A stretch of DNA of 38,934 nt from Desulfonatronum sp. (lineage in GTDB: Bacteria; Desulfobacterota; Desulfovibrionia; Desulfovibrionales; Desulfonatronaceae), in NCBI GenBank assembly GCA_011049455.1, contig DSBL01000077.1, positions 1-38,934 on the forward strand, written 5' to 3'. Below the pieces are notes generated by a model that worked only from the letters and a program-made list of their open reading frames with translations, had not been told where the DNA came from and made no database searches. How positions within the stretch are numbered: the stretch's first letter is position 1; every line of letters starts with the position of its first letter. The translations under genes and the position numbers were made by a program. Shown in pieces: positions 6,195-23,252 of this stretch.

Positions 6195-7820
6195 TCATGC
6201 TTGGTGCACGATCCGTCCGTCGAAGACGGTCATGGAGACTTGAGTGTCAGCGATGCTTGAGGGATCGACGTTAAAAATGTCCTGGTCCAGGACGATCATG
6301 TCCGCGAATTTTCCAGGGGTGACGCTGCCGTGGAGGTGGCCCAGGCCGTAGGCCCGTGCGGGGGAAATGGTGTACGCGGCCAAGGCTTCGTCCAGGCTGA
6401 TCTTCTGTTCGGGATGCCAGCCGCCCCAGGGAGTCCCGTCCATTCTGGCCCTGGTCACCGCGGCCTGGATGCCCGCCAATGGAGTGGGATCGCAGACCGG
6501 GCAATCCGAGCTGAACAGCAGGGGCACCCCGGCATCGAGGATCGAGCGGAAAGCATAGGCATGGCGGCCCACCGCACCGGCGCACTGATCGATCATGTTG
6601 ATGTCCAGGATCATGTTCGGCGGCTGGGCCGTGACCGGCATGTTCAGGCCGGCCAAACGGCGGATGTCCTCCTGGCGGATCACCTGGACGTGTTCAATGC
6701 GGTGCTCCAGGGCCAGGGGCGGCGCGTCTGGCAAACGCTGCTCTTGCAGTTTCTGAAACAGGGTGATCAGCTCCCGGTTGGTCCGGTCGCCGATGGCATG
6801 GACCATCACGGACAGGCCGGCCTCTTCGGCGGCTTGGGCTTCCCGGAGCATTTCGTCCGGGGACAGCACGCACAGGCCGGTGGTCTTGGTGTCCAGGTAG
6901 GGTTCGAGCATCCAGGCCGTGCGAGCGCCCATGCCGCCGTCCATGAAGTATTTCAGGTGTCCCAGACGGAGGTATTCGTCGCCTAAGCCCGTGCGCAGGC
7001 CGATTTCCGCGGCCGCGGCCCGGTTTTCTCCGGGCAGGCTGGTCCAGCAACGCAGAAGCAAGCTTCGTTCCTGACGCAGAGCCTGCCAGGCCCGGAAGGT
7101 CAGGGCGGACTCGGAGATGTTTCCGGCCAGGCGCACGTCGTGAATTCCGGTCAGGCCCAGGGCGTGCAGTCCTGCCTGGGCCTCGTGCATGACCTGCAGG
7201 ACCCGGACAAAGGAGGGTTCCGGGATGGAGCTTTTCACGCAGTTTACGGCCTCCTCGCGGAGCACGCCGGTCAGTTCTCCCCGGGGATCCAGCTCGATCA
7301 GTCCGTTGGAGTTTTTCGCCGTGTCCGGTCCGACGCAAGCCAGTTCCAATGCTCGGGAATTGGCCACGGCCAAGTGCAGGTCGCAGCGCCAGATGAGCAC
7401 GGGGCGGTCCGGGCAGGCTTGGTCCAGATCCTGGCGCAGGGGCAGACGGTTTTCCGGCCAATCGGATTCGTTGAAGCCCTGGCCTTGGATCCAGCCGTCC
7501 GGGGTCTCGGTCTGGTTTTGGGCTCGGAGCAGAAAGAGGCAGTGGTCCAGGCTCTGGGCCATGTTCAGCGGCACGCCCCGGCGGCCCATGGCCCATTGGT
7601 AGTAGTGGAAGTGGGAGTCCCAGAAACCGGGCAGAACAAGCCGGCCTCCCAGGTCGATGCGCCGGGTGTGCGGCCCGCCGGACAGAGGTGACCTGACCTC
7701 GGGGGAGACGTCGAGGACGGTCCTGCCCCGGACTGCCACGGAAGCGGCCCAGGGCATGTCCGGATCCATGGTGCGGATCCGCGCGTTATCCAGGATCAGT
7801 TCAGGCAGCGGCACGGGCAA
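6195..7820 (-). CDS. Amidohydrolase of the YtcJ/Amidohydro_3 type
   Basis: A 541-residue metal-dependent hydrolase with a TIM barrel. The metal ligands can be placed: DSHFH gives H70 and H72, [10 protein letters not shown] gives the likely carboxylated lysine K290, VMVHAIGD gives H341, EHRIEHVQ gives H377 and FSSDCPV gives D439. Small beta-sandwich segments occur at both ends, and there is no signal peptide, so it is probably cytoplasmic. Relatives hydrolyse N-acyl or N-formyl compounds, but few have known substrates. The start is a TTG directly after the TAA of the racemase gene (a GTG two codons in is the alternative), which implies translational coupling. It is the last gene of the solute-transport run; that context suggests it deacylates or opens a ring of an imported amino-acid derivative, which is inference. 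Confidence 0.85.
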
Positions 7821-8873
7821 TTAGAGCAAAAAGCCTTGGGGAAAAGGATCGTGTTCGTCCAGGACGAATTCATGGCGCCCGGTGATCTGGGCGCTGCCGG
7901 AGATGCGCACGGCGACCGCGGGAAAATTGCCCACCGTGAGGGTCTGCTGGATGCCGGCCGTGAAGGCCGTGCCCAGGGGCCCGGTATTGACGTATTCCTG
8001 ACCGGGGAACAGGCAGCCTCGGTGAGAGAGCAGGGCCAGCTTGGCCGCGGTGCCGGTGCCGCAGGGCGAGCGGTCCAGGTGGCTTTCCCCGTAGACAACC
8101 AGGCCGCTGCCTTCGCACCCGCCCGAATGACGGTAGAATTCAACGACATCCACGCTGGTCGCATCAAGGTGTTGCGGATGGGCAACATGCACCTGTTCGT
8201 TGGCCAGGTCAATAATACGCATGCCCAGGTCGACCAGTGCGCGGTGGGTCAATTCAACGGACTGCAACGCGGACTGGTCCAAGTCGACCAAGGCGAAAAA
8301 ACCCCCGGCATAGACGAGATCGATGCGGATGCGCTCCAGCTGGCCGGGCACGTTGATGCCGACGTCGGTTTTAAATGCAAAGCAGGGCACCGTGGTCAAG
8401 GAAATCGAAATAACGCGACGATCCCGGACCCGGGCGACCACTGGCAGGCAGCCTGCGGGCGCGTCCACGAGCAGGTCCAGATCGTATTCGTCCTCTTCTG
8501 AAGCCTGAGGAAGTTGCAGAGCCCCGGTTTCCAAAAAGGCGGTCGCCGCGCCGATGGTGGCATGGCCGCAGAGGTGGGGATAACGGCGGGCGTCCATGTA
8601 GATCAGTCCGAAAGCGGCTCCCGGAGTAACGGGTTCGGTGACCGCCGCGGCCACCATGTCCCGGTGGCCGCGCGGTTCCCTGGTCAGGAGCAGCCGGATA
8701 TGATCAAGACGGTTCTGGAAAAAGGCGCGCTTTTGGGCCATGGTCGCGCCAGGAATCGAACCGGTTCCGCCGATGATCAGCCGGGTTGGTTCGCCCGCGG
8801 TATGCGAGTCAATGGTGGTGATGCGTTGGGGGTAGAGGGCCTGGAAGGACCGGCACGTGAAGGGATTGTTCAT
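7821..8873 (-). CDS. Proline racemase / 4-hydroxyproline epimerase family protein
   Basis: A 350-residue cytoplasmic enzyme of the proline racemase superfamily, which inverts the alpha-carbon of proline or hydroxyproline without a cofactor. Both catalytic cysteines are present: C102 in HLCGHATIG and C271 in RSPCGTGTAAK. This argues for a racemase or epimerase rather than trans-3-hydroxyproline dehydratase, where one cysteine is replaced. The N-terminal DSHTAGEPTR and the GGCEGSGLVV block are also family hallmarks. The ATG lies one base after the stop of the upstream ABC ATPase gene and the amidohydrolase follows directly, so the three are probably one translationally coupled unit. No D-amino-acid dehydrogenase, proline reductase or hydroxyproline catabolic gene is visible nearby, so the substrate (proline, hydroxyproline, or another imino acid) is open. 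Confidence 0.85.
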   Translation of the reverse strand: MNNPFTCRSFQALYPQRITTIDSHTAGEPTRLIIGGTGSIPGATMAQKRAFFQNRLDHIRLLLTREPRGHRDMVAAAVTEPVTPGAAFGLIYMDARRYPHLCGHATIGAATAFLETGALQLPQASEEDEYDLDLLVDAPAGCLPVVARVRDRRVISISLTTVPCFAFKTDVGINVPGQLERIRIDLVYAGGFFALVDLDQSALQSVELTHRALVDLGMRIIDLANEQVHVAHPQHLDATSVDVVEFYRHSGGCEGSGLVVYGESHLDRSPCGTGTAAKLALLSHRGCLFPGQEYVNTGPLGTAFTAGIQQTLTVGNFPAVAVRISGSAQITGRHEFVLDEHDPFPQGFLL

Positions 8874-8874
8874 C

Positions 8875-9975
8875 CTATTGCGCCGGCAGGAGGCCGCAGT
8901 GTTTCGGCGGCACGTGCACGTCCACGGCGCAGCCGATCTTCAACAGCCGCTGGTCCACGAGGTTGATCACGTGCATTTCCAGGCCGTTGTCCAGATGGAC
9001 GAAGTAAATGACTTCCCCGCCCATGTAGCTGCGGTCCTTGATCAGTCCGGTGAAGCGGTTTTCCGTTCCGCCGCCGTTGATTTCACCCTTGGGCGCAACG
9101 CTCGGTTTCTGGGCCCGGATGACCAGCTCGACGCGACTGTTCTCGGCCCAGTCCTTGGGATGGGCCACCTGAAAGACAGCACCGTCATCCAGTTTGATGC
9201 GGTACAGACCGTTTTCCTGGTCGATCACGGTGCCGGGAAAGAAATTGGACGTGCCCAGAAAGTCGGCCACGAAACGGTTCACCGGGAAGTTGTAGACCTC
9301 CTCGGGCGGCCCCTCCTGCTGCAACAAGCCGTCCTGCAAGACCACGATCCGGTCGGACATGCTCAAGGCCTCGCGCTGGTCGTGGGTCACGAAGATGGTG
9401 GTCACGCCCAGCATCTGCTGCAGGTTGTCGATCTCCCGGCGCATCTCCTCGCGCAGGTTCTCGTCCAGAGCCGACAGCGGCTCGTCCATGAGCAGCACGT
9501 CCGGTTCGATGACAATGGCCCGGGCCAAGGCGATGCGCTGCTGCTGGCCCCCGGAAAGCTGGGCCGGATAGCGTTTCTCCACGCCCGGCAAACGGACCAT
9601 TTCCAGGGCCGTCTTCACCTTTTCCTGGATTTCAGTCTTGGGCATGTTGCGGTACTTCAGGCCGAAGGCCACGTTGTCGAAAATGGTTTTGTGCGGGAAC
9701 AGGGCGTAGTTTTGAAAGATCATGCCCAGGTTGCGCTTGTGGATGGGCACGTCGTTGACCCGTTTGCCCTTGATCAGGATGTCCCCGCCGCTGGGGTGCT
9801 CCAGGCCGGCGATCATTCTGAGAATGGTTGTCTTGCCGCACCCGGAAGGGCCGAGCAATGTCACCAGCGTGCCCTGTTCGATGTCCAGGTCAATGGGTTT
9901 TACGGCGCGGATCTTGCCAAAATTTTTGTATAGGCCCCTGAGCTGAACGGCAAAGCCGTTGGCAGTGGAATGCAC
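8875..9975 (-). CDS. potA: Pot-type ABC transporter ATP-binding protein
   Basis: A 366-residue ATPase of the spermidine/putrescine (Pot) importer class. Visible motifs are Walker A GPSGCGKTT, signature LSGGQQQR, Walker B VLLMDEP and the H-loop FVTHDQREA. A C-terminal TOBE-like domain (about 280-360) is typical of this class. It starts at a GTG at 9975 with a GGGAG ribosome site about ten bases upstream. Its partner permeases and binding protein are probably the potB/potC/potD-like genes at 13785-16801, from which it is separated by a complete OpuC cassette. That cassette has its own ATPase, so this one is otherwise unpaired. The leader resembles that of opuCC, and an inverted repeat lies just upstream. 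The solute is unknown; the symbol marks the family only. Confidence 0.88.
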   Translation of the reverse strand: MHSTANGFAVQLRGLYKNFGKIRAVKPIDLDIEQGTLVTLLGPSGCGKTTILRMIAGLEHPSGGDILIKGKRVNDVPIHKRNLGMIFQNYALFPHKTIFDNVAFGLKYRNMPKTEIQEKVKTALEMVRLPGVEKRYPAQLSGGQQQRIALARAIVIEPDVLLMDEPLSALDENLREEMRREIDNLQQMLGVTTIFVTHDQREALSMSDRIVVLQDGLLQQEGPPEEVYNFPVNRFVADFLGTSNFFPGTVIDQENGLYRIKLDDGAVFQVAHPKDWAENSRVELVIRAQKPSVAPKGEINGGGTENRFTGLIKDRSYMGGEVIYFVHLDNGLEMHVINLVDQRLLKIGCAVDVHVPPKHCGLLPAQ

Positions 9976-10128: not shown

Positions 10129-11043
10129 TTAAAGTAATTTTTTGTCCTTCAGCCACTGTTTTGCAACACTGGTCACGTCTTTATGCTCCACGTCGACATC
10201 GGCGTTGAGACGTTGCATGGAATCAGTGTCCAGGTTCTCAGCCAAAGGCTTCAGGATTTCCCTGATTTCAGGGTGCTTGTCCAAGACCTCTTTTCTCACG
10301 ACCGGCGCCGGATTGTATACCGGAAAAAAGTTCTTGTCGTCATCAAGGTTGACCAGATCAAAGGCGGCAATGCGACCATCCGTGGCAAAGCCCATGGCGG
10401 AGGTGACCTGGTTGTTTCTCAAGGCCAGATAGGTCAGGCCCATATCCATCCTTTTGACGGCCCGGACCGGCATTTGGAATTCATAAAGCTCCATGAGCGC
10501 CCTGAATCCGTCAGGTCTTTCCCAGAATTCCGCCTCCAGGGCAAACGTGATGTCATCAGGTTTTTTTTCAACGTGTCGGCCAAAATCACTGATGCTTTTT
10601 ACGCCCAGTTGCTCAGAGTCTTCCTTGCGCATCATGATGGTATAGGTGTTGTTGAAGTCAACCGGATCCAGCCAGACAAGGCCTTTTTCGGCGTCGGCCT
10701 CCTTGACCCACTCATAGACCTTTACCGGGTCGGTCATGATTGCGATATCCTCTTGGTTGTAAAAAACCGTATACGCCGTGCCCGTGTATTCAAAATACAT
10801 ATCGATTTGTTTGTTTTCCAGGGATTGCCTGGCAATCGCCGTCCCCACGCCTGTTCGCAATTCAACGTCGAATCCATGCTTTTCCAGAAGCAATTTTGCC
10901 AGTTCGGGCAGAATATATTGCTCTGTGAAATTTTTTCCACCGATAGTAATTTTTTTGTCCTGGGCCAACAGGCTGTCCGGTACCAGCAGACATGCGCAAA
11001 CCAACGCTATTGCCACAACACAACATGAAACTTTTTTTTGCAT
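10129..11043 (-). CDS. opuCC: OpuC-type glycine betaine/choline-class substrate-binding protein
   Basis: A 304-residue exported solute-binding protein of the OpuAC family that delivers quaternary-ammonium solutes such as glycine betaine to the OpuC permeases. A Sec signal peptide covers about the first 28 residues, with a hydrophobic core and a cut near LLAQ; two cysteines in the core do not form a good lipobox. The mature protein starts with KITIGGKNFTEQYILPELA and has TGVGTAIARQSL and DMYFEYTGTAY, all typical of OpuCC/OsmX proteins. The ribosome site AAAGGAG precedes the ATG at 11043. It is the last of four opuC genes, in the order ATPase, permease, permease, binding protein, which differs from Bacillus opuC. 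The exact ligand cannot be read from sequence here. Confidence 0.9.
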   Translation of the reverse strand: MQKKVSCCVVAIALVCACLLVPDSLLAQDKKITIGGKNFTEQYILPELAKLLLEKHGFDVELRTGVGTAIARQSLENKQIDMYFEYTGTAYTVFYNQEDIAIMTDPVKVYEWVKEADAEKGLVWLDPVDFNNTYTIMMRKEDSEQLGVKSISDFGRHVEKKPDDITFALEAEFWERPDGFRALMELYEFQMPVRAVKRMDMGLTYLALRNNQVTSAMGFATDGRIAAFDLVNLDDDKNFFPVYNPAPVVRKEVLDKHPEIREILKPLAENLDTDSMQRLNADVDVEHKDVTSVAKQWLKDKKLL

Positions 11044-11089
11044 GAGAAACTCCTTTGTTTAAATTTTTACGAAAGAAAAATTCACGTCG

Positions 11090-11818
11090 TCAGTCAGCAA
11101 GTCTGATTCCTTTTGGAATGATGATCACCCCGATGAGTTCAATCAGATAGTCGCCGATCAGGGCCAGCAGGATCACCGGAAGGGCGCCGGCCAAAAGTTT
11201 GTCCGTTTGCATCAGATTGATCCCGGTGAAAATGAGATCGCCCAGGCCGCCTGCACCGATAAGGTAGCCAAGGGCGGCGGTGCCGATATTGATGACCAGA
11301 GCAACCCTGATGCCGGTCAAGATGACGTTCATGGCGTTGGGGAGTTCGATTTGAAACAGGATTTTTCGGGGGGTCATTCCAATGCCCTTTGCTGCGTCAA
11401 TGATGGCCGGAGATACGGAAAGGATGCCGGCCAGGGTGTTTCTGGCAATGGGCAGGGTTGAATAAATGAACAGGGCAAAAATCGCCGGTTTGGACCCTAT
11501 TCCCAGAAAACTCATGACAATGGCCAGAACAGCCAAGGAAGGGATGGTCTGCCCAAGCCCGATGACATACATGACAATCCCGGCGTATTTTTTGAATTTT
11601 TTTCTGGAAACAAATATGCCCGCGGCCAGGCCGGTTACAATGGCCATGCCCATGCTGATCAAAACAAGGTGCAGGTGTTGCCTGACAAGGAACAATACAT
11701 ATTCCTGCTCCCAGGGATCGGAATAATATTCTATCAGGCCGACCCGTTCAGCACCAATTCCCATGATGAAGAACAGGGCCAGGAGAAAAAAGCGATACCC
11801 TTTTGTTGTTGTACTCAT
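11090..11818 (-). CDS. opuCD: OpuC-type ABC permease (second)
   Basis: A 242-residue inner-membrane permease of the glycine betaine/carnitine/choline class, with about six membrane helices and a long hydrophobic N-terminal helix. The cytoplasmic loop that contacts the ATPase reads AAKGIGMTPRKILFQIELPNAM, with its usual Gly. The end, IGAGGLGDLIFTGI, is characteristic of the family. The ATG at 11818 has GAGGAT upstream, which overlaps the stop of the preceding permease gene, so translation is coupled. It is 25 residues longer than its partner at 11829-12479, and the two probably form a heterodimeric channel with OpuCA on the inside and OpuCC on the outside. The B/D naming is by order only. Confidence 0.87.
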   Translation of the reverse strand: MSTTTKGYRFFLLALFFIMGIGAERVGLIEYYSDPWEQEYVLFLVRQHLHLVLISMGMAIVTGLAAGIFVSRKKFKKYAGIVMYVIGLGQTIPSLAVLAIVMSFLGIGSKPAIFALFIYSTLPIARNTLAGILSVSPAIIDAAKGIGMTPRKILFQIELPNAMNVILTGIRVALVINIGTAALGYLIGAGGLGDLIFTGINLMQTDKLLAGALPVILLALIGDYLIELIGVIIIPKGIRLAD

Positions 11819-11828
11819 CGACAGATCC

Positions 11829-12479
11829 TCAAATTTTCAAGCCTTTGGGAGTAAGCAGCCGCTCCAAGGAACTCATGCCCAAGTCCACGAAGACAGCCAG
11901 GAGCGAAACACCCAAGGCGCCCGTCAGAATCATGGCCTCGTGTGAACGGGCGATTCCCTGCTGAATGAATACGCCAAGTCCGCCCGCGCCGACATAGGCG
12001 GCAATCGCGGCGATGCCAATGTTCATGACCGCGGCGGTTTTGAGGCCGGCCAGGATGACGGGTACGGCCAATGGGATTTCAACTTCCCGCAACAGTTGCC
12101 ATTTGGTCATGCCCATGCCTTTTCCGGCGTCCACCAAAGCCGGGTCCACGTTTTTTATGGCGATGTAGGTGTTCCGGATGATTGGCAATAGGGAGTACAG
12201 CACCAGGGCGATGACCGCGGGGACCTTGCCCAGACCATGGCCGACAAGGGCAAGAACCGGAAGCATCAGGCCGAACAGGGCAATGGAAGGAACGGTCATG
12301 ATGATATTGGCTCCACCAAGGACTTTCTGGGCCAATTCCTTTTTTTTGGTGATCAAAACGCCCAAAGGCACGCCTATGCACATGGCGATAACCAGGGACA
12401 GGGCGACCAGCCAGACGTGCTCCCAGAGCAGAAAAAAAGTCCTGGAAAGATTTTGATCAAGAAAAGTCAGCAGATCCAT
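11829..12479 (-). CDS. opuCB: OpuC-type ABC permease (first)
   Basis: A 216-residue inner-membrane permease of the betaine/carnitine/choline importer class. Hydrophobic helices alternate with short loops; the ATPase-contact loop reads DAGKGMGMTKWQLLREVEIPLA, and AAYVGAGGLGVFIQQGIA near the end is a family hallmark. The ATG at 12479 is preceded by GAGGAT and lies 14 bases after the stop of the ATPase gene. It pairs with the permease at 11090-11818. Length and order match OpuCB of other bacteria. Nothing odd is seen in base use or frame. Confidence 0.88.
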   Translation of the reverse strand: MDLLTFLDQNLSRTFFLLWEHVWLVALSLVIAMCIGVPLGVLITKKKELAQKVLGGANIIMTVPSIALFGLMLPVLALVGHGLGKVPAVIALVLYSLLPIIRNTYIAIKNVDPALVDAGKGMGMTKWQLLREVEIPLAVPVILAGLKTAAVMNIGIAAIAAYVGAGGLGVFIQQGIARSHEAMILTGALGVSLLAVFVDLGMSSLERLLTPKGLKI

Positions 12480-12493
12480 AATAGTTATCCTCG

Positions 12494-13621
12494 TTACTCG
12501 TCATGATCATCCGCGTAGAGTTCCAAAATGGCCTTTTGAATGTTTTTGTAGCTGATGGTTCCAGCAAATTTGCCATCGTCGTCCATGACGGGAAAATTCA
12601 TCACATCATGCAAAAGCATGGCTGATAGGGCGTCCCGCAATGGTTCTCTGGTGCCCAGTTCCTCGGGAAAGCTTTCAGCCAGGTCCTTGAGCTTCCCCTG
12701 CTCGTATTTGAGAAGCTTTGGCGTGACATGACCCAGGACTTTGTCTCCCTTAAGCACGATGGCAAACTTTAATCCTTGTTCCTCCATCATTTTCAGGGTT
12801 TCCTCGGCATTGCTTTCAGCCTGAACGATATTCTTGGGATGGGGGTTGATGGCGTCTCGAATTTTTAACAATCCAAGAACCTTGAGTGCCCTGTCCGCGC
12901 CCACGAAGTCCGATACGAACTTGTTGGCCGGGCGCATCAGAATGACTTCCGGGGTGTCAAATTGAACAAGTTTCCCGTCCTTGAATATGGCGATTTTGTC
13001 AGCCATTTTTATCGCTTCGTGGATGTCGTGAGAAACAAAGGCGATGGTTTTTTTGAGTTTGGCCTGAAGCTTCAAGAATTCATCCTGGATCTGGTTTCTG
13101 TTGATGGGATCGATGGCTCCGAAGGGTTCGTCCATGAGCAAAATTTCCGGGTCGGCGGCCAACCCCCTGGCCACGCCGACCCTTTGCTGCTGTCCGCCGG
13201 ACAGTTCCACGGGGTAGCGGTCCCGATAGATTTTCGGGTCCAGTTTTACCAGATGCAAAAGTTCGTCAGTCCGGTCCTTGATCTTTTCTTTGTTCCACTT
13301 GAGCATTTTGGGGACAACGGCGACATTGTCGGCAATGGTTTTATTGGGGAAAAGCCCTATTTGCTGGATGACATACCCCATGCTGAGCCTGAGTTTTTGG
13401 GGATTCACGTCCATGATGTTCTTTTCGGCAACGCGGATGTTGCCGCTGGATATGCTCTCGAGCCTGTTGGTCATTCGCAAAAGAGTTGTTTTGCCGCATC
13501 CTGACGGCCCCAGAAAAACAGCGGTTTCCCCCTGTTTGATCTCAAAAGTGACGTTGTCGTTGGCCGTGACCGCGTTTTTTCCCACTCCGAAAAATTTGGT
13601 CACGGAATCGTATTCAATCAT
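12494..13621 (-). CDS. opuCA: OpuC-type ABC ATPase with C-terminal CBS domains
   Basis: A 375-residue ATPase that powers betaine-class solute import. Motifs are Walker A GPSGCGKTT (about 40), signature LSGGQQQR, Walker B ILLMDEPFGAID and H-loop FVSHDIHEA. After about residue 250 come two CBS modules, the last with DVMNFPVMDDDGKFAG. In OpuA/OpuC systems such modules sense ionic strength or cyclic dinucleotides and gate transport, so this ATPase probably carries the osmotic control of the importer. The ATG at 13621 has GGAG about eight bases upstream. A TATAAC -10 candidate sits 30 bases upstream, so the opuC genes may have their own promoter even though they are inside the Pot-type gene run. 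Confidence 0.9.
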   Translation of the reverse strand: MIEYDSVTKFFGVGKNAVTANDNVTFEIKQGETAVFLGPSGCGKTTLLRMTNRLESISSGNIRVAEKNIMDVNPQKLRLSMGYVIQQIGLFPNKTIADNVAVVPKMLKWNKEKIKDRTDELLHLVKLDPKIYRDRYPVELSGGQQQRVGVARGLAADPEILLMDEPFGAIDPINRNQIQDEFLKLQAKLKKTIAFVSHDIHEAIKMADKIAIFKDGKLVQFDTPEVILMRPANKFVSDFVGADRALKVLGLLKIRDAINPHPKNIVQAESNAEETLKMMEEQGLKFAIVLKGDKVLGHVTPKLLKYEQGKLKDLAESFPEELGTREPLRDALSAMLLHDVMNFPVMDDDGKFAGTISYKNIQKAILELYADDHDE

Positions 13622-13784: not shown

Positions 13785-14930
13785 CTAACTCGTGGCCATG
13801 ATCCGATCCCACTGCTCGGCCCACTCCACCTGCTTGCTGTTCCAGTAGATGGGATCGGCGAACAGATAGCCTTCCAGCTTGCCGGTGGGGTCAAAGGCCG
13901 GCAGCTTGCGGATGCTTTCCGGCAGATCCACTTTGGAGGGATCCAGACTGGGCGGATACATCTGGCCTTCGGCCACGGCAATGGAGGCCTCAGGCGCGAG
14001 CATGAAGTCCAGCAGTTGCTGGGCCACGTTCAGATCCGTGCCCTTCATTACGAAGATGCATTCCTGCCAGGAGTAGCAGTTTTTCGGGGCCAAAAAGCCG
14101 ATGGGGTAGCCTTCGCTTTGCAAGTGGGCGACCCGGCCGGACCAGGCCACGGTGGCATGGATTTCCTCGCCGGCCAAAAGACTCATCAGCTCCGCGCCGG
14201 AGCCCCAGTATTTCTTGACCATGGCCACCTGGGCGCGCAAGGCGTCCCACACTGCCTTGATGTCCTGGATGTCGTTGGGGTTCTGGCCGGTATGCAGGGC
14301 TGCGTACCAGATGTTCGTGCGCCACTCGCCCCAGCTGCCCAGGTTGCCTCGCACGCTCTCGTCCCAGAGCAGAGAGGCGCCCAGCTCCTCGGCCTTTTCC
14401 TTGGGGATGTATTTGGTGTTGTAGGCGATGCCGGTCTGCCCCAGGTTGTAGGGCACGGCGGACAGGGCATTCGGGGTGATTTTGCGGTACGGTGTAATCA
14501 TCGACTCCATGACCAGAGCCAGATTGGGGATTTTGCTCTCATCCAAAGCGGAATGGAATTCCAGCCCGACATAGCGGGCGTAGTCGAACACGCCGCTCAA
14601 GTGGGCCAGGTTGAACTCGCCGCCCGGTGGAAACGAGGCGATGACGCGGGTCAGATAGGTGTCCATGTCGCCGAATTCGCCGTCAATGACGCGCACGCCG
14701 GTGGCCTTGGTGAACGGGTCGAAGGCATGCCGTCGGAAGGCCTGGGAGGTGGTTCCGCCCCAGCCGTCAAAGCGGATGGAGCCCTGGGCCAGGGCCTTGC
14801 TCATCATGCTGAAGGGACCGCCCACCAAACCGGCGGCAACGCCGGCCAAAGCACAGTACTTGACGAAATCCCGGCGGGAAAGGTCGCCGGCCAAATGGCG
14901 TTCATGAACATCTTTGAGTTGTTTTTTCAT
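13785..14930 (-). CDS. potD: Pot-type ABC substrate-binding protein with Tat signal
   Basis: A 381-residue periplasmic solute-binding protein of the PotD/SBP_bac_8 class. The N-terminus carries a twin-arginine signal, SRRDFVKYCALAG, with a hydrophobic core to about residue 48, so it is exported folded by Tat; this is less common than Sec for such proteins. The mature part has the family's GWGGTTSQAF start, the TGIAYNTK block and a Trp/Tyr-rich second lobe. The start at 14930 is chosen for the AGGAGG nine bases upstream; a longer TTG-start frame has no support. Directly upstream lies a 13-copy octamer repeat. The genes for its two permeases precede it, and the ATPase is beyond the opuC cassette. 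The ligand is unknown; polyamines, lysine-related or proline-related compounds are candidates from context. Confidence 0.87.
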   Translation of the reverse strand: MKKQLKDVHERHLAGDLSRRDFVKYCALAGVAAGLVGGPFSMMSKALAQGSIRFDGWGGTTSQAFRRHAFDPFTKATGVRVIDGEFGDMDTYLTRVIASFPPGGEFNLAHLSGVFDYARYVGLEFHSALDESKIPNLALVMESMITPYRKITPNALSAVPYNLGQTGIAYNTKYIPKEKAEELGASLLWDESVRGNLGSWGEWRTNIWYAALHTGQNPNDIQDIKAVWDALRAQVAMVKKYWGSGAELMSLLAGEEIHATVAWSGRVAHLQSEGYPIGFLAPKNCYSWQECIFVMKGTDLNVAQQLLDFMLAPEASIAVAEGQMYPPSLDPSKVDLPESIRKLPAFDPTGKLEGYLFADPIYWNSKQVEWAEQWDRIMATS

Positions 14931-14942
14931 GGTGTCCTCCTG

Positions 14943-15045
14943 GTTCAAAGGTTCAAGGGTTCAAAGGTTCAAGGGTTCAACGGTTCAAGAGTTCGATGGT
15001 TCGAGGGTTCATGGTTCAACGGTTCAGCGGTTAAGTCGTTCATGG
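14943..15045. repeat. Tandem octamer repeat, consensus GTTCAAGG, about 13 units
   Basis: Thirteen head-to-tail units of eight bases (one is seven) begin GTTC or GTTA, with drifting last bases: GTTCAAAG, GTTCAAGG, GTTCAAAG, GTTCAAGG, GTTCAACG and so on. The first five are nearly identical and later units decay. The array lies between the potC-like stop and the potD-like ribosome site, abutting the latter. On the transcribed strand it reads CCTTGAAC repeats, within the leader of the binding-protein gene. Confidence 0.9.
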
Positions 15046-15140: not shown

Positions 15141-15932
15141 CTAACTCTTTGAAAACCTCCTGATGAAGTATCCTGCCAAAAGCGGGATCATGATGGTGAA
15201 GACGATCATCACCGTGCCCAGGGCGTTGATCTCCGGGCTGACGGAATGCCTGAGCATGCCGAAAATGCGTACGGGTACGGTCTGGTGTTCCGCCGTGGCC
15301 CAGAACAGGGTGGCGGTGATGTCGTCAAAGGAAATGGTGAACGAAAACAGCATGCCGGCAAGGACCGCAGGCATGAGCAGGGGCAGGGTGACCTCCTTGA
15401 AGGTTTGCAGCGGGTTGGCGCCCAAAGACAGGGCCGCTTCCTCGTAGACCCGCTTGATGCTGACCATGCGGGCCTGCACGATGAGCAGAACATAGGGCAG
15501 GGTCAGGACCACGTGGCCGGCCAAGAGCAGGGCGAAGCTCTTGGGCTGCTGCAGCCAGCGGATGAACAGCAGCAGGGCCACGCCCAGGACCACCTCGGGA
15601 ATCATGATCGGTGCCAGAAGCAGGGTGTTCAAGGTGTTCTTGCCCTTGAAGCGGTAGCGCACAAAGGCCATGGCCGCGGGCACTGCAATGGCCGAGGCGA
15701 TCAGCGCGGTCAGCGTGCCCAGGACAATGGAGTTTTTGAAGGCCCGCAGGATGGATTCGTTCTGGGCCAGTTGGGCATACCACTTCAGGCTGAAGCCCTG
15801 CATCGGAAAGCTGGCGAATTGCTGCGGGTTGAAGGACAGAACCACGACCACGGCAATGGGCAGGAACATGAACACGTAGACCAGGATGGTGTACAACCTG
15901 ATCAAGGACCAGCCGGATACTTTCAGTTTCAT
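15141..15932 (-). CDS. potC: Pot-type ABC permease (PotC-like)
   Basis: A 263-residue inner-membrane permease with about six helices. The ATPase-contact EAA loop is EEAALSLGANPLQTFKEV, followed by the TLPLLMPAVLAGM helix. The FTISFDDITATLFW segment is typical of PotC-like proteins. The ATG at 15932 lies six bases from the end of the potB-like gene, and its AGGA ribosome site is inside that gene's end, so the two are coupled. It forms the transport channel with the potB-like protein. A gap of about 210 bases, with the octamer repeat, separates it from the binding-protein gene. Confidence 0.88.
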   Translation of the reverse strand: MKLKVSGWSLIRLYTILVYVFMFLPIAVVVVLSFNPQQFASFPMQGFSLKWYAQLAQNESILRAFKNSIVLGTLTALIASAIAVPAAMAFVRYRFKGKNTLNTLLLAPIMIPEVVLGVALLLFIRWLQQPKSFALLLAGHVVLTLPYVLLIVQARMVSIKRVYEEAALSLGANPLQTFKEVTLPLLMPAVLAGMLFSFTISFDDITATLFWATAEHQTVPVRIFGMLRHSVSPEINALGTVMIVFTIMIPLLAGYFIRRFSKS

Positions 15933-15937
15933 GGCGT

Positions 15938-16801
15938 CTATCCTTTAAAGGCCTTGAACAGCGTGTTGATGCCCAGGTAGCGGTTGTAGGTCCAAACGAT
16001 GCAGCCCAGAAGCAGCAAAAGGATCACGCTGATGGCCGAGCCAAAGGGCCAGTCCAGGGTGCCGATGACCCGCTTGAAGATCAGGTTGGCGATCATTTCG
16101 TTGCCCGGCCCGCCCAAGATCATGGGCGGCAAATAAGTGCCGGCCGTGAGTACGAACACCAGCAGGCAGCCGGCGCTGACCCCGGGCAGGCTCAAGGGCA
16201 GGGTGACTTCCTTGAACGCCTGCCATTCATTACAGCCCATGCTGCGAGCCGCTTCCAGCAGGTTCTTGTCGATGGCCTCCAGACTGACGAAAATATTCAG
16301 GATCATGAACGGCAGCAGATACTGGATCAGGCCCATGAGCACGGCGGCCTCGTTGTACAGCAGGGACAGGGGTTCGGAGATCACCCCCAGGCGCATCAGG
16401 GTGTGGTTCAGAAAGCCCGTGGTTCCCAGGATGTTGATCCAGCTCATGGTCCGGATGATGAAGCTGATCCAGAAGGGGATCATGATCAGCAGGATCAAGG
16501 CCCTGCGGTAGCGGGATTTGCTGCGGTAGAAGAAATAGGCCGGAACATAGCCCATGACCAGGCAGAGGAAGACGCAGATCACGGCAACACGCAAGGTCCG
16601 GAAAAGAATGGTCGGGTAGAACAGATCTTCGAAAAAACGGGCGTAATTGCCGAACTGAAAGGCCGGGATCACCGCTCCGGTGGGGGCGCGCAGCCAGAAA
16701 CTGTAAACCACCACGAACAGCACCGGCACGACAAGCAGCAGGAACACGGCTGTCAGGGACGGTGAAAGCAGTAGCCAGGGTCGAAGCTTGTTCTCCTTCA
16801 T
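15938..16801 (-). CDS. potB: Pot-type ABC permease (PotB-like)
   Basis: A 287-residue inner-membrane permease. The first helix, SLTAVFLLLVVPVLFVVVY, follows a short positive N-terminus, and the EAA loop is EAARSMGCNEWQAFKEV. The start at 16801 overlaps the stop of the acetyltransferase gene as ATGA and has GAGGAAAC upstream; the longer frame reaching 16966 runs back through that gene and is not credible. This overlap ties the transporter to beta-lysine acetylation on one message. It pairs with the potC-like permease that follows. Substrate specificity cannot be read from permease sequence. Confidence 0.88.
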   Translation of the reverse strand: MKENKLRPWLLLSPSLTAVFLLLVVPVLFVVVYSFWLRAPTGAVIPAFQFGNYARFFEDLFYPTILFRTLRVAVICVFLCLVMGYVPAYFFYRSKSRYRRALILLIMIPFWISFIIRTMSWINILGTTGFLNHTLMRLGVISEPLSLLYNEAAVLMGLIQYLLPFMILNIFVSLEAIDKNLLEAARSMGCNEWQAFKEVTLPLSLPGVSAGCLLVFVLTAGTYLPPMILGGPGNEMIANLIFKRVIGTLDWPFGSAISVILLLLLGCIVWTYNRYLGINTLFKAFKG

Positions 16802-17736
16802 GTTGTTTCCTCGGGGCGCAACGACAGATACCAGACATGCATGCTTTCCAGGTCTCCGGCGATATGGGTGTTGTTGGGCAAAGTTCCGCCAAAAACGTAT
16901 CCGGCCCGGGCAAAGGTGATGTTCATGCCGAAGGACGCGGCCCGGGCAATGGTGTACAGGGTGCACAGGCCGGCTTGTTGCATTTTTCGGCCCATGTGCT
17001 CCAACAAGGCCCCGGCGAGCTTGCGGCCGCGGTATTCCGGCAGAGTGGCGAAATCAGTCATTTCCGCGGCGGCCAGGGTAAAGTCCATCTCGGCCGAGGC
17101 CAGGGCCACGGGTCGGCCATGCACCAGGACTCCGTAGTAGCGCACGTTTGTAGCCATGGACCGGCGCAGATAGTCCGGGTCGAAGATGGGAAAGGGATAG
17201 GAATCAAACACCGCGGCGTACAGGGCGGCCATGTGTTCGGTCTGATCCGGCGTCATCCGGACAATGGCGGCGTCGCGGGGCAGGCGGGGTCGGCTGAGGG
17301 TAGCGGCCTTGGCGTGAGCCGTCTCCAGAACGTCGGCCAACATTTGCGGGTCTTCCGGACGTTTGCGCCAATCGGCAAAGTAGCGGCCCAGAAAAGCGCC
17401 CCCTTCGCGTCCGTTGAACATTCCGGGAACAAAGGCTTCAGTGCTGAACCCGGATCGGGTGAACCGGGGGGCCATGGTTTCCTGTACCTTGGCGAAGATT
17501 TTGGTGTACCCGTGCTCTCGAGCCAGTTGTTCCAATCTGGGCACGATGTCCGGTTCGTCTTGGGGCGCCAGGTGCATCAGGTAGGCCCGTTTGTTCAACG
17601 GGCCGTGCTGGACCAAGGAGTTGCCGATATGTTCCAGAGTGTCGGTCGGCCTGGACGCGATAGGGCGGCTTAAAGAAGCCGCACCTGTTAGTGGAGCACG
17701 GCAATGACGGCTGGTAGAATTCGATTTTAGCTTCAT
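16798..17736 (-). CDS. ablB: Probable beta-lysine N-acetyltransferase
   Basis: A 312-residue protein with a C-terminal GNAT acetyltransferase fold (about 150-290). The acetyl-CoA loop is ATLPEYRGRKLAGALLEHM. The N-terminal part, with GNSLVQHG, NKRAYLMHL and GYTKIFAKV, is characteristic of the AblB family. AblB moves an acetyl group from acetyl-CoA to the epsilon-amino group of beta-lysine, giving N-epsilon-acetyl-beta-lysine, a zwitterionic compatible solute known from methanogens and some bacteria. The start at 17736 has GGAAG eight bases upstream; a start 17 codons earlier is possible. It follows kamA, the gene for the first step, by 186 bases and overlaps the downstream permease gene. The pairing with kamA strongly supports the call. 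Confidence 0.85.
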   Translation of the reverse strand: MKLKSNSTSRHCRAPLTGAASLSRPIASRPTDTLEHIGNSLVQHGPLNKRAYLMHLAPQDEPDIVPRLEQLAREHGYTKIFAKVQETMAPRFTRSGFSTEAFVPGMFNGREGGAFLGRYFADWRKRPEDPQMLADVLETAHAKAATLSRPRLPRDAAIVRMTPDQTEHMAALYAAVFDSYPFPIFDPDYLRRSMATNVRYYGVLVHGRPVALASAEMDFTLAAAEMTDFATLPEYRGRKLAGALLEHMGRKMQQAGLCTLYTIARAASFGMNITFARAGYVFGGTLPNNTHIAGDLESMHVWYLSLRPEETT

Positions 17737-17922
17737 CGAAACTTCCTTTCCGGTCTCGCAGGACAAAGCCGTTGCATGAGAGGGCAAGCATGATTGCTGA
17801 AAATGTTTGGCAACGGGTTTGTTCGGCAGGGCCGGGATCGGTGGGACAGTCGATCAATCCATAATCGAACCCGACCGGCTTTCGGCAGTCTCGGATTTAC
17901 CCAATCAGGGGATGGCCCCGTG

Positions 17923-19344
17923 CTAGGCGACATGGTTTCTGCGCTCCATACGGGCGTTGTCGCTGGGGGTCAGGCTGCACGTGTCGTCCCAGTCCGAGAG
18001 CAGCTTTTCAATGCCCACGCATTGCTCCACGGCGTCGTCCTCCTTGAGCTGGAGGTTGCAGGCCTCGCAGTTGCGATCGCAGAAATGGGTCTCGAATCGT
18101 TCCGGCTCGGAGTAAGTGGTGATCACGCCCTCGAAATTGCGCAGGATGACCTTGTTGGCGCCCCAGGATACAATGTAGTTGGGCATGACCGGGATCTTGC
18201 CGCCGCCGCCTGGCGCGTCAATGACGTAGGTGGGCACGGCAAAGCCGCTGGTGTGGCCGCGCAGGCTCTCCATGATCTCGATGCCTTTGCCCACGGGGGT
18301 GCGGAAATGGCTCAGGCCCTCGGAAAGGTCGCACTGGTAGAGATAATAGGGGCGGACCCGGTTCTTGACCAATTTCTGGTTCAAGGTGCGGATCAACCGC
18401 TGGCAGTCGTTGACCCCGGCCAGCAACACGCTCTGGTTGCCCAGGGGGATGCCCGCGTCGGCCAGGCGGGCCAGGGCTGATCTGGAGGTGACCGTGATTT
18501 CCCGGGGATGGTTGAAGTGGGTGTTCAGCCACAGCGGATGATGCTTTTTGAGCATGCGCACCAGATCGTCGGTGATGCGGTAGGGCAGGACCACGGGCAT
18601 GCGTGTGCCGATGCGCACCACTTCCACGTGGTCGATGGTCCGCAATTCCCCGAGAATCCAGTCCAGGCGCTCGTCTGAAAGCATCAGGGGATCGCCTCCG
18701 GAGAGCAGCACGTCCCTGACCTGCGGGGTGTTGCGGATATATTTGATTCCTCGTTGCAATTCCCTCTTGCCGGGCACGGATTCACGATCCAAATCCCCGA
18801 CCTTGCGTTTGCGCGTGCAGTGGCGGCAGTACATGGAGCAGATGTTGCTGATATGGAACAACACCCGATCCGGGTAGCGATGGGTGATGTTCGGAGCCGG
18901 ACTGTCCTCGTCCTCGTGCAGGGGATCGATCATGTCGTGGCGGCTGACCACCAACTCTTTGGGGGAGGGAAAAGCTTGTCGGAAGACAGGATCGTTTTCA
19001 TAGTCCGTCGGATCGATCAGGGACAGATAGTAGGGCGTCACGGACATGGGAAACTTGTCCGTGGTCTGGGCAAAGGCGCGGCGCTGCAGATCCGGAAAGT
19101 GCACGCCCAGGAGCCGTTCAAAGGTGACTATGTCCTTGACGGCGTTGCGGATGTGCCATTTCCAGTCGGTCCATTGGGATTTCCAGTCGGTCGGTGGCGG
19201 GCTGTTCAGGGAATCGGAGCGGCCCTGAATCTTTGGGCCGGCGGTTTTGCTTTGCTGTTCAAGGGGTGAATGCCTGTGCGGGCTGGTCAATTTGTAAGTC
19301 ATTCGTTTGGCGGCCTTGTGTTGCCGCTTGCTGATCTGGTCCAT
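17923..19344 (-). CDS. kamA: L-lysine 2,3-aminomutase
   Basis: A 473-residue cytoplasmic radical SAM, PLP-dependent enzyme that converts L-lysine to L-beta-lysine (also called ablA when paired with ablB). The cluster ligands are C169, C173 and C176 in [18 protein letters not shown] lysine K383 lies in [11 protein letters not shown]. The two aspartates that hold the substrate's side-chain amine in characterised lysine aminomutases are present as D339 (YQCDLSEG) and D376, which favours lysine over glutamate. Candidate zinc ligands are C314, C422, C426 and C429. An extra, low-complexity N-terminal stretch of about 60 residues precedes the conserved core. The ATG at 19344 has AGGGAGG just upstream. 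The 136-base upstream gap holds a perfect palindrome and follows a LuxR-type regulator gene. Confidence 0.93.
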
Positions 19345-19448
19345 TTTCCTCCCTTGTTGCAGTGGTTGGAGGACGTAAAATAACGCCTCTTTCACAGCAT
19401 GGAACTAAAACAGGGTTGGAAAGACAAGGCAAGGTGGGATAATGGGCA

Positions 19449-20786: not shown

Positions 20787-23252
20787 TCACGCATTGCCAT
20801 GGCCAAGGAAAAAGGCCGGATTGGTGCGCACGGTCATGCCCATCACCGGGACCACCGGGCGGCCATGTTCTTCCCTGGCTCCCCCGGGCCATGAAAAATC
20901 CGGATACATACGTTGAAAGAGCTTTTTGGCGTAAGGCCCAAGGCGCATGAAAACCCGCTTGTCTTCGGTCTGCACGATGCGCGCGTTGAGATTGAAATCC
21001 GCGTCCCCGAGCACTGTTTTGACCACGTACAAGGGCACTTCCCGACCGCTTTCGTGGCGGCGCAGATGCGTGGCGATGTCGATCACCGTGGCGGCGTCGA
21101 TGGGTTGGTCCGCGTTCCATTTATCCTGGACGGGCAGTCCGGCCACGTAGAGGTTTTGCAGCTCGATGCCGATCTGGCGGCAGTTGTAGCAGATGCGCTT
21201 CATTTCCTCGGGCGAGTCGTTGATCCCGGCCAGCAGAACAATATTGTTGTAGACCGTGACGCCGCAATTGATCAGCCGGCGGATGATCTCGCCGTGCACC
21301 AGACGAAATTCGCTGGAATGGACGAACTGGGTTTCCAGCTCCAGGCGGGTCGGGGCGGCCGGGTCAAGGGCGTTCAGGACAGTGAGTTCAGCGATCACCT
21401 CATCGGTGAAGGCTTCGGGTTCGTAGGCGAACATCAGGCTGCGCACGCGCAACGCCGTCACATGGGCGATGTCTTGCAGGGCGACGGCGAAGTCGCGGAC
21501 CGCGGGCAGATAGTCGAGGATCCGGCCTTCAGCTGCCAGCACCACATCCGTGATGTCCGTGTTGTTGCGGATATAGTCCACAATGGCCGGCAGCTGGTCG
21601 TGCGCGGCAACGTCCACCTCGGCCTGGGCCAGGTGCGTGCGCTGCACCCAGGCCAGACCGGTGGGCACGATGCTTTGCAGAATGCGTGAATCCCGGCGAA
21701 TGATTTCCTGGACCCGGCTCAAGGCATCCGGGTCGAAATCGCTTACGGGCGGGGCGGGTTCCGAAAGGCGGCCAAGGTAGAGGGAGTCGTCCCCGATTCC
21801 GGCCATGAACAGGGTGTCCAGCGTGCCCCCTGGGTCGACCCTGCTGGTTTCCAGGGCAAAGCGCGGGGCGAATTCCCTGAAATACTGCTCAGTATACGGG
21901 GTGCGGAGCCAAAGCATTTCCGGATCATCCCGGCTTTGTTCCACAGCCCAGCCGCTGGTGTTCCAGTCGATCTTGCCGATTCTTGTGGCCGTGCAGAAGA
22001 TGGGCATGGCCCGATCCGGGAGGTGGCCGCGCAGATGGGCCGAGGCGGCGTGTCCGACCGAAAGGGGGGTCCAGTAGATGTTGTTGCCCTGGATGGGACT
22101 GCATGGAATATAGACGTAATGCAGCTCCGAGCCCACGGCTCGCAACTGGGCGTACAACCGGGTCAGTTCCTCGCCGCTGTCGTTGCAGTCCTTTAAAAAC
22201 GGGGTCTGGGTGTACACGCTCACCCCGCCGCGCACCAGCCTGGCAATAATCTCCAGGCTGTGATGGGAAATCTCGTCCGGATGGATGAAGTGGGTGGCGA
22301 TCTCGATTTTCTTGCCGGTTTTTTGCAGGTCCCGGTTCCGGTGGATCAAATAGTTCAGCCAGAACTCCTTTCGGGCGAAGAACAGGGAAGGATAGTAGGA
22401 GATGCACCGGGAGGCGATGCGGATGGTCTGGATGTGCGGGATGGCGGCCAATCCGGCCACGGCGCAAGTCAGGGTGGTTTTGTTCATCAGCGGTTCCCCG
22501 CCGGTGAGCACGATTTCCTTGATCCGGGGGGAGGCCGCTATGTAATCCAGAGCCTTTTGCACGTCCTTCACCGTGGGCGCGGCCTGGTTGCGGCAGTCCT
22601 TGTGCTTGCGGAAACAGAATCGGCAGTAAACCGGGCAGCTCATGTGCAGCACGAAGATGGGCCGGTTCTGGTACATTTGTTCCAGCAGACCCTGATGAAA
22701 CTGACCGATCCAGGTGTTTTTAAGGCCGGTTTCATCCAGCTCCTGGACAAAGGGCATGAACTGATAGGCCACGTGGCGGGAGAGCCGGGCCTGGCGCAGG
22801 ACATGACGGGACAGTCTGACCGGGTAGGTGTCGATGACGGTTTGCAGGTCCTCGCGTTCGGCCTGGGGAACGACGGTGTTGGTCAATTCCTCGTACTGCC
22901 GCACGCTGCGCACCGTGACAAACCCGTCCCCGGGCAGGACGACTTCCAGAAGGGCCAGAACGAACCGTTCAGGCAGCGCAATGCCGGATACGGCCACTTC
23001 GGTTTGTCCGTCGTGGCGCAGCACGGCCACTTGATCCAGGACATTCTTAAAAAAGGAGGCTTCATTTTTTTCGCAGGCGCGCAATAGGTTTCCGAACCGA
23101 TCCCCGTCCCGGATCACGGCGTAAAAATTCCTGCCCAGAAAAAACTCCGCGCCCCACTGCTGGAGAAAATCGATTGCCCGGGAACGCAACTGTTCCAGGG
23201 GAACCTCAACGCGTTGCCCGGAAGGGACGAATCGAACTGAAAATGTTTTCAC
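20787..23252 (-). CDS. Tandem KamA-like radical SAM protein with degenerate second half
   Basis: An 821-residue protein I cannot assign to a characterised enzyme. Residues 1-120 are an unrecognised N-terminal domain. Residues 140-460 resemble the lysine aminomutase fold: SCPVYCRFCFRKHKD carries C206, C210 and C213, GGEP is at 251-254, and IGKID (K427) aligns with the PLP-lysine region, though the GGGGK motif and substrate aspartates are absent. Residues 530-780 repeat the same fold: VVLAAEGR matches IVLTGGEP, ETQFVHSSEF matches ATHFIHPDEI, and NNIVLLAGINDSPEEM matches TQTPFLKDCNDSGEEL. The three cluster cysteines are lost; the segment reads GLAWVQRTHLAQAEVD. So it is one active-looking and one dead-looking half in a single chain. 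It starts at a GTG at 23252 and precedes the regulator and kamA. An aminomutase-like or regulatory partner role is inference. Confidence 0.8.
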   Translation of the reverse strand: MKTFSVRFVPSGQRVEVPLEQLRSRAIDFLQQWGAEFFLGRNFYAVIRDGDRFGNLLRACEKNEASFFKNVLDQVAVLRHDGQTEVAVSGIALPERFVLALLEVVLPGDGFVTVRSVRQYEELTNTVVPQAEREDLQTVIDTYPVRLSRHVLRQARLSRHVAYQFMPFVQELDETGLKNTWIGQFHQGLLEQMYQNRPIFVLHMSCPVYCRFCFRKHKDCRNQAAPTVKDVQKALDYIAASPRIKEIVLTGGEPLMNKTTLTCAVAGLAAIPHIQTIRIASRCISYYPSLFFARKEFWLNYLIHRNRDLQKTGKKIEIATHFIHPDEISHHSLEIIARLVRGGVSVYTQTPFLKDCNDSGEELTRLYAQLRAVGSELHYVYIPCSPIQGNNIYWTPLSVGHAASAHLRGHLPDRAMPIFCTATRIGKIDWNTSGWAVEQSRDDPEMLWLRTPYTEQYFREFAPRFALETSRVDPGGTLDTLFMAGIGDDSLYLGRLSEPAPPVSDFDPDALSRVQEIIRRDSRILQSIVPTGLAWVQRTHLAQAEVDVAAHDQLPAIVDYIRNNTDITDVVLAAEGRILDYLPAVRDFAVALQDIAHVTALRVRSLMFAYEPEAFTDEVIAELTVLNALDPAAPTRLELETQFVHSSEFRLVHGEIIRRLINCGVTVYNNIVLLAGINDSPEEMKRICYNCRQIGIELQNLYVAGLPVQDKWNADQPIDAATVIDIATHLRRHESGREVPLYVVKTVLGDADFNLNARIVQTEDKRVFMRLGPYAKKLFQRMYPDFSWPGGAREEHGRPVVPVMGMTVRTNPAFFLGHGNA

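Follow-up and report, generated by a model that had tools for sequence, protein, structure and literature searches.

What does a protein do that reads as two lysine 2,3-aminomutases (LAM, KamA family) in tandem, of which only one keeps its cofactor residues? The question is raised by a gene of Desulfonatronum sp. that lies in the window, by which we mean the whole stretch of 38,934 nucleotides analysed here (contig DSBL01000077.1). Alignments of its relatives together with predicted structures show a conserved family of two-barrel proteins, in which one predicted half is fully equipped and the other is cofactor-less (Table 1). A preliminary description made from the DNA letters had this anatomy right, but did not mention that residues 1-128 form a separate N-terminal domain.

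Table 1. The two-barrel gene, its parts and its neighbours in the window
Feature	Position	Strand	Basis
Two-barrel KamA-family gene, 821 aa	20787..23252	-	Open from GTG start to stop without internal stop; relatives aligned
N-terminal domain, residues 1-128	22869..23252	-	Kept across the family; no match in Pfam or in a profile-based PDB search
First barrel, about residues 130-470, radical SAM KamA-type, putatively catalytic	21843..22865	-	NCBIfam, PDB match, alignment
CPVYCRFC, cluster cysteines C206/C210/C213	22614..22637	-	Invariant, 43/43
K427 in IGKID, aligned to LAM PLP lysine K337	21972..21974	-	Invariant, 43/43
Second barrel, residues 478-821, predicted fold as barrel 1, without cluster Cys or PLP Lys	20790..21821	-	Profile, model
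D750, acidic residue of barrel 2 at the PLP-lysine position	21003..21005	-	E in 34, D in 9 (n=43)
PAS + LuxR-type HTH regulator, 417 aa	19481..20734	-	Domain/family models
Canonical lysine 2,3-aminomutase AblA/KamA	17923..19395	-	TIGR03820, 750.6 bits vs cut-off 525.4
AblB, beta-lysine N-acetyltransferase	16798..17787	-	TIGR03827, 310 bits vs cut-off 205; true start probably downstream
PotB-like permease, cluster importer	15938..16966	-	77% identity to L105 PotB; start uncertain, overlaps ablB
PotC-like permease, cluster importer	15141..15932	-	75% identity to cluster counterpart
TAT-exported solute-binding protein, cluster importer	13785..14948	-	68% identity to cluster counterpart
PotA-like ATPase, cluster importer	8875..9975	-	65% identity to L105 PotA
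Proline-racemase-family enzyme	7821..8873	-	51% identity to L105 cluster member
Amidohydrolase	6195..7820	-	47% identity to L104 cluster member, which is Amidohydro_3 by Pfam

The Pfam Radical_SAM match is confined to residues 206-258 of the protein, while six NCBIfam KamA-type models match two stretches of it, and TIGR00238 matches the two halves of the homologous gene in a relative's genome separately (E 4.9e-34 and 4.7e-16). AlphaFold models reached a pTM of 0.89 for the whole protein and 0.83 for the second half alone. By Foldseek, the best PDB match was lysine 2,3-aminomutase 2a5h for the whole model as well as for barrel 2 alone, and the lower-ranked matches of barrel 2 were again mostly radical SAM enzymes; barrel 2 is thus predicted to be a barrel of the radical SAM type. 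Structure prediction, which the preliminary description had named as the test of this point, left the reading standing. The two halves are also recognizable as homologues in profile-profile comparison (25-26% identity over 251-254 columns, E 4e-30), and hhalign against AblA gave E 1e-32 for half 1 and E 1e-16 for half 2.

The CxxxCxxC motif that had been read at C206/C210/C213 is confirmed in the first half of all 43 near-full-length tandem sequences of our family alignment and is missing from the second half. In barrel 2 the three cysteine columns hold V/I/A/D, L/I/S/P/Y and L/V/I, with a cysteine in none of the 15 members compared. The column of the PLP lysine holds lysine in every first half and glutamate or aspartate in every second half. 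Profile comparison, alignment and model therefore bear out the earlier statement that the second half repeats the core without the three cysteines. Seven residues are common to both halves (H217/H540, E317/E638, Y347/Y668, R371/R692, E376/E697, R414/R737 and D429/D752) and do not occur in the 22 single-barrel KamA proteins compared. With each of the other KamA groups tested, the second half has at most one residue of this exclusive kind in common. Five of the seven (E317, Y347, R371, E376, R414) recur in L027, a protein of genome G553 that has a similar C-terminal tail and differs from the tandem protein in having a single barrel, which retains the cluster motif and the lysine, and in its gene neighbourhood. 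On these sequence similarities we take L027 to be the single-barrel protein closest to the tandem family. The seven residues common to the halves and the five in L027 support the internal duplication already proposed over a fusion of dissimilar KamA proteins. We also built a tree that included single-barrel KamA proteins and whose root is unsafe owing to long branches; in it each half formed one well-supported group and the main groupings were mirrored in both, which argues for joint inheritance of the halves from a time before the family spread. In G553 this single-barrel KamA-like gene (L155:9154-10239) lies amid sugar-nucleotide, acyltransferase and ligase-like genes, in what reads as a surface-polysaccharide cluster.

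Barrel 2 is under purifying selection (dN/dS 0.18-0.36), with the strongest constraint in barrel 1 (0.03-0.12), and its R538 aligns with R215 of barrel 1, that is, with the substrate-carboxylate arginine of LAM. Taken together, the fold, R538, the shared residues and the purifying selection are more in keeping with a pseudo-enzyme that binds a ligand or mimics a subunit than with a remnant in decay, and we infer a ligand-binding or structural role. Such a pseudo-enzyme would take the part that a second subunit has in the LAM oligomer, bind an amino-acid-like ligand without turnover, or do both. The N-terminal domain and barrel 2 might even be a unit with a separate function, such as ligand binding, to which barrel 1 is attached as a dispensable catalytic module. 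This is what one genome of the same genus, G407, brings to mind: an in-frame deletion of 311 codons (L013:9947-11566, L039:7946-9562) removes the whole catalytic barrel, the N-terminal domain and barrel 2 stay open and keep an unchanged dN/dS (0.15-0.18, relative to the nearest intact gene), and no separate barrel 1 was found elsewhere in that genome. However, this is a single metagenome-assembled genome (MAG), in which the short gene could be a real short form, a recent deletion or an assembly error, and barrel 1 is the slowest-evolving part in intact pairs; we consider a dispensable barrel 1 quite unlikely. Fragments at contig edges in G411, G446, G730, G776, G811 and G843 were counted as truncated and not as short forms. 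In G634 the gene looked naturally split in two; this reading was rejected, the gap being a run of N.

Which reaction might barrel 1 perform? C206, C210, C213, R215, Y194, R197 and K427 are invariant in the 43 aligned sequences; R215 aligns with the carboxylate-binding arginine of LAM (R134), and Y194 and R197 align with its PLP-phosphate residues (Y113/R116). The loop before the PLP lysine is two residues shorter than in LAM. Since KamA groups that read NIGKIP or TGKIE in place of GGGGK keep the lysine in the identical column, IGKID is a plausible PLP site. The earlier account of this region, with a lysine in the first half and none in the second, thus stands, but the GGGGK site that it ascribed to single-domain KamA proteins is not universal among them. 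Barrel 1 departs from LAM at two positions, D293 and D330, which we take to be the residues holding the epsilon-amino group of lysine in the LAM structure (2a5h). Both aspartates are present in the canonical KamA of the window, and they are replaced by Ser385 and Ala422 in barrel 1; lysine is therefore not bound as in LAM. A lysine substrate would need another acidic contact, for which E376, D413 or D429 are candidates by alignment, or else the substrate would be a different one.

Compared with AblA/KamA (TIGR03820; 2a5h), the tandem protein has in common the barrel fold, CxxxCxxC, the lysine column, the equivalents of R134 and Y113/R116 and, in several genomes, a position next to ablB; it differs in having two barrels and a new N-terminal domain. 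It scores 172.4 bits against TIGR03820, whose cut-off is 525.4, and the C-terminal LAM_C domain (PF12544), a strong match in the KamA of the window, finds no match in it. The TIGR00238 KamA subfamily model gives 172 bits over two stretches (cut-off 199.2). Models for TIGR00238, arginine and glutamate 2,3-aminomutases and EpmB match both halves, all with scores below their curated cut-offs, and as far as seen these proteins have no second barrel. Literature searches found no account of a tandem KamA or of the gene cluster around it; we therefore regard this double-barrelled LAM relative as undescribed.

Relatives with roughly 45-73% identity over essentially the full length were found in Desulfovibrionales, in Desulfobacterales-type genomes and in one Acidobacteria, one deltaproteobacterial and one Eremiobacterota MAG; a search of viral contigs found no relative of the tandem protein. 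The spread is patchy. At a strict threshold just 1 of 395 genomes across the phylum was positive, namely the window's own; at a looser threshold there were 14 of 247 in its order, two of these 14 being single-barrel proteins; and the tandem gene is present in 36 of 242 genomes of the Desulfobacterales-type order of G625. The genome of the window (G000) holds five further KamA-family genes (on C1, C17, C19, C59 and C90) of several subtypes, reading GGGGK, NIGKIP, TGKIE and AGGKIP.

The usual neighbour of ablB is ablA, and the other LAM subfamily, yjeK, was never found with ablB (PMC2821294). Synthesis of N-epsilon-acetyl-beta-lysine via ablA and ablB was proposed for Pelobacter carbinolicus (PMC3543383). 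Among the 242 Desulfobacterales-type genomes, for many of which completeness is not given, 22 carried ablB and 14 canonical AblA above the cut-off. The tandem gene has a strong genomic link to ablB: it was found in 17 of the 22 ablB genomes and in 19 of the 220 without ablB (Fisher p 2.8e-12, which overstates the case because related genomes are not independent). Canonical AblA showed no association (1/22 vs 13/220), so that ablB mostly occurs without AblA in this group of sulfate reducers. The link to beta-lysine metabolism that had been suggested from the window is supported by this co-occurrence. In G625, G656, G699 and G704 ablB lies directly upstream of the tandem gene on the same strand (G666 has a partial ablB), and in six further genomes the distance is below 10 kb; in many it is absent. 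Seven genomes have the tandem protein as their sole KamA-family member. Four of these carry ablB (G656, G684, G707 and G773, the last as a partial match below the cut-off), and three do not (G405, G413, G627). AblB proteins from tandem-only genomes interleave with those adjoining kamA and form no subfamily of their own. As an alternative supplier of beta-lysine we considered the NIGKIP-type KamA (L057), which is present in 35 of the 242 genomes and in just 8 of the 22 with ablB, and hence cannot be the general partner of AblB. AblA-like proteins with scores of 435-512 bits are frequent, yet ablB is found in few of the genomes that encode them. G712 and G748 (L131, L133) have ablB immediately downstream of an ABC transporter of the amino-acid type, and neither a KamA gene nor a tandem gene is visible there.

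We tentatively favour, with close to even confidence, a two-barrel radical SAM aminomutase of the KamA type that stands in for AblA and whose second barrel is a pseudo-enzyme. Barrel 1 would cleave SAM and shift the amino group of a PLP-bound amino acid from C2 to C3; judging from the genomic pattern, the resulting beta-amino acid may be the one N-acetylated by AblB, in place of the product of canonical AblA in many sulfate-reducer genomes. The AblB partner and the one-strand layout in several genomes resemble the AblA-AblB pathway for N-epsilon-acetyl-beta-lysine. In contrast to that pathway, AblA is missing from most tandem genomes, and genes for an importer, a racemase, an amidohydrolase and an M23-like protein are added.

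The tandem gene of the window heads a one-strand series with the PAS-LuxR regulator, kamA, ablB and the PotB-, PotC- and PotD-like genes, the gaps between the first four being 52, 85 and 135 bp. This order had led to the proposal that, by virtue of its second half, the protein acts as a sensor or partner tuning the neighbouring KamA. Among the loci examined, however, kamA adjoins the tandem gene in the window only, and the role first assigned was shaped by this peculiarity. The seven genomes with the tandem gene and no other KamA have already largely refuted such tuning, and the complete catalytic equipment of barrel 1, the half with the strongest constraint, also speaks against it; we regard it as very improbable. 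The wider search that the preliminary description had called for did recover a real family of two-half proteins, but one that tracks ablB and not ablA/kamA. Its remark that the gene lies next to a regulator is true of the window, but the regulator is not conserved in place: relatives of PAS-LuxR recur, some way off, in just two further loci, and other loci have IclR or sigma-54 regulators. Rfam searches of the window and five loci gave nothing at the gathering score, and thus no known riboswitch at that score.

The typical locus of the G625 group carries on one strand IclR, potB, potC, a solute-binding protein, potA, proline racemase, amidohydrolase, a class I aminotransferase and ablB, and on the opposite strand the tandem gene and an M23-like protein. 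The full locus is present in G644, G684, G739 and G808, and the window holds most of the cluster, split there by a four-gene ProX/ProW/ProV-like transporter between PotA and the remaining importer genes (10129-13621, minus strand), which reads as a glycine-betaine type. By our tally, at least part of the importer lies near the tandem gene in 21 of the 36 positive genomes of the G625 order, and the M23-like gene in 17; the latter also flanks the tandem gene in four Desulfonatronovibrio-group genomes. This stand-alone protein of about 220 aa (L105:10489-11154 and relatives) matches the central portion (residues 390-573) of PRK06148, a family of proteins of about 1015 aa (NF004799); it is not present in the window. 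In G413, where the tandem gene is the only KamA gene, an aminotransferase that reads as ornithine aminotransferase (L032:7628-8836) lies 36 bp upstream of it, a possible hint at ornithine as substrate.

These neighbours count against a stand-in for AblA, as the importer, racemase, amidohydrolase, aminotransferase and IclR look as catabolic as osmolyte-making. The tandem genomes without ablB, the exchange of D293 and D330 and the score below the TIGR00238 cut-off also speak against it. The protein might instead be a KamA-fold radical SAM enzyme for another substrate, perhaps with other chemistry, that serves a pathway taking up a nitrogen compound through the PotABCD-type transporter and degrading it, with AblB acetylating an intermediate of that pathway and not beta-lysine. 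The cluster with its importer, proline-racemase-family enzyme, amidohydrolase, class I aminotransferase, IclR/sigma-54 regulators and M23-like protein would suit such a pathway, as would S385/A422 in place of the lysine-binding aspartate pair, the family-specific E317, Y347, R371, E376, R414 and D429, and the half of tandem genomes that have no detectable ablB (19/36). Nevertheless, barrel 1 keeps all its counterparts of the PLP lysine, of the residues contacting the PLP phosphate and of the arginine for the substrate carboxylate, which points to an amino acid aldimine, and the AblB of the cluster is not a separate subfamily. We find this explanation doubtful. It is possible, and we give the idea a measure of credence short of belief, that the family is a new class of aminomutase in which the duplicated barrel without cluster and PLP is an obligatory ligand-binding or regulatory half, and in which either the beta-amino acid produced or the binding mode differs, in a pathway of import and processing, as yet unassigned, to which AblB belongs. 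The barrel 2 of this proposal retains the carboxylate arginine and the H/E/Y/R/E/R/D set, and has an invariant acid in place of the PLP lysine. For the AblA stand-in that we favour, the proposed setting would likewise be a cluster whose products take up and process a nitrogen compound as well, and the substrate would be lysine or a relative.

To conclude, the tandem gene occupies the place of the missing normal aminomutase in many marine and salt-lake bacteria and probably does that kind of job. The product of the normal enzyme, beta-lysine, feeds a protective solute, and AblB is the marker used to predict the synthesis of the osmolyte N-epsilon-acetyl-beta-lysine. The tandem protein also offers a natural experiment on the use of a radical SAM/PLP barrel after the loss of both cofactors. 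Of the candidates for the missing enzyme this family is the best, and it would change the annotation of osmolytes in bacteria of marine and haloalkaline sediments.
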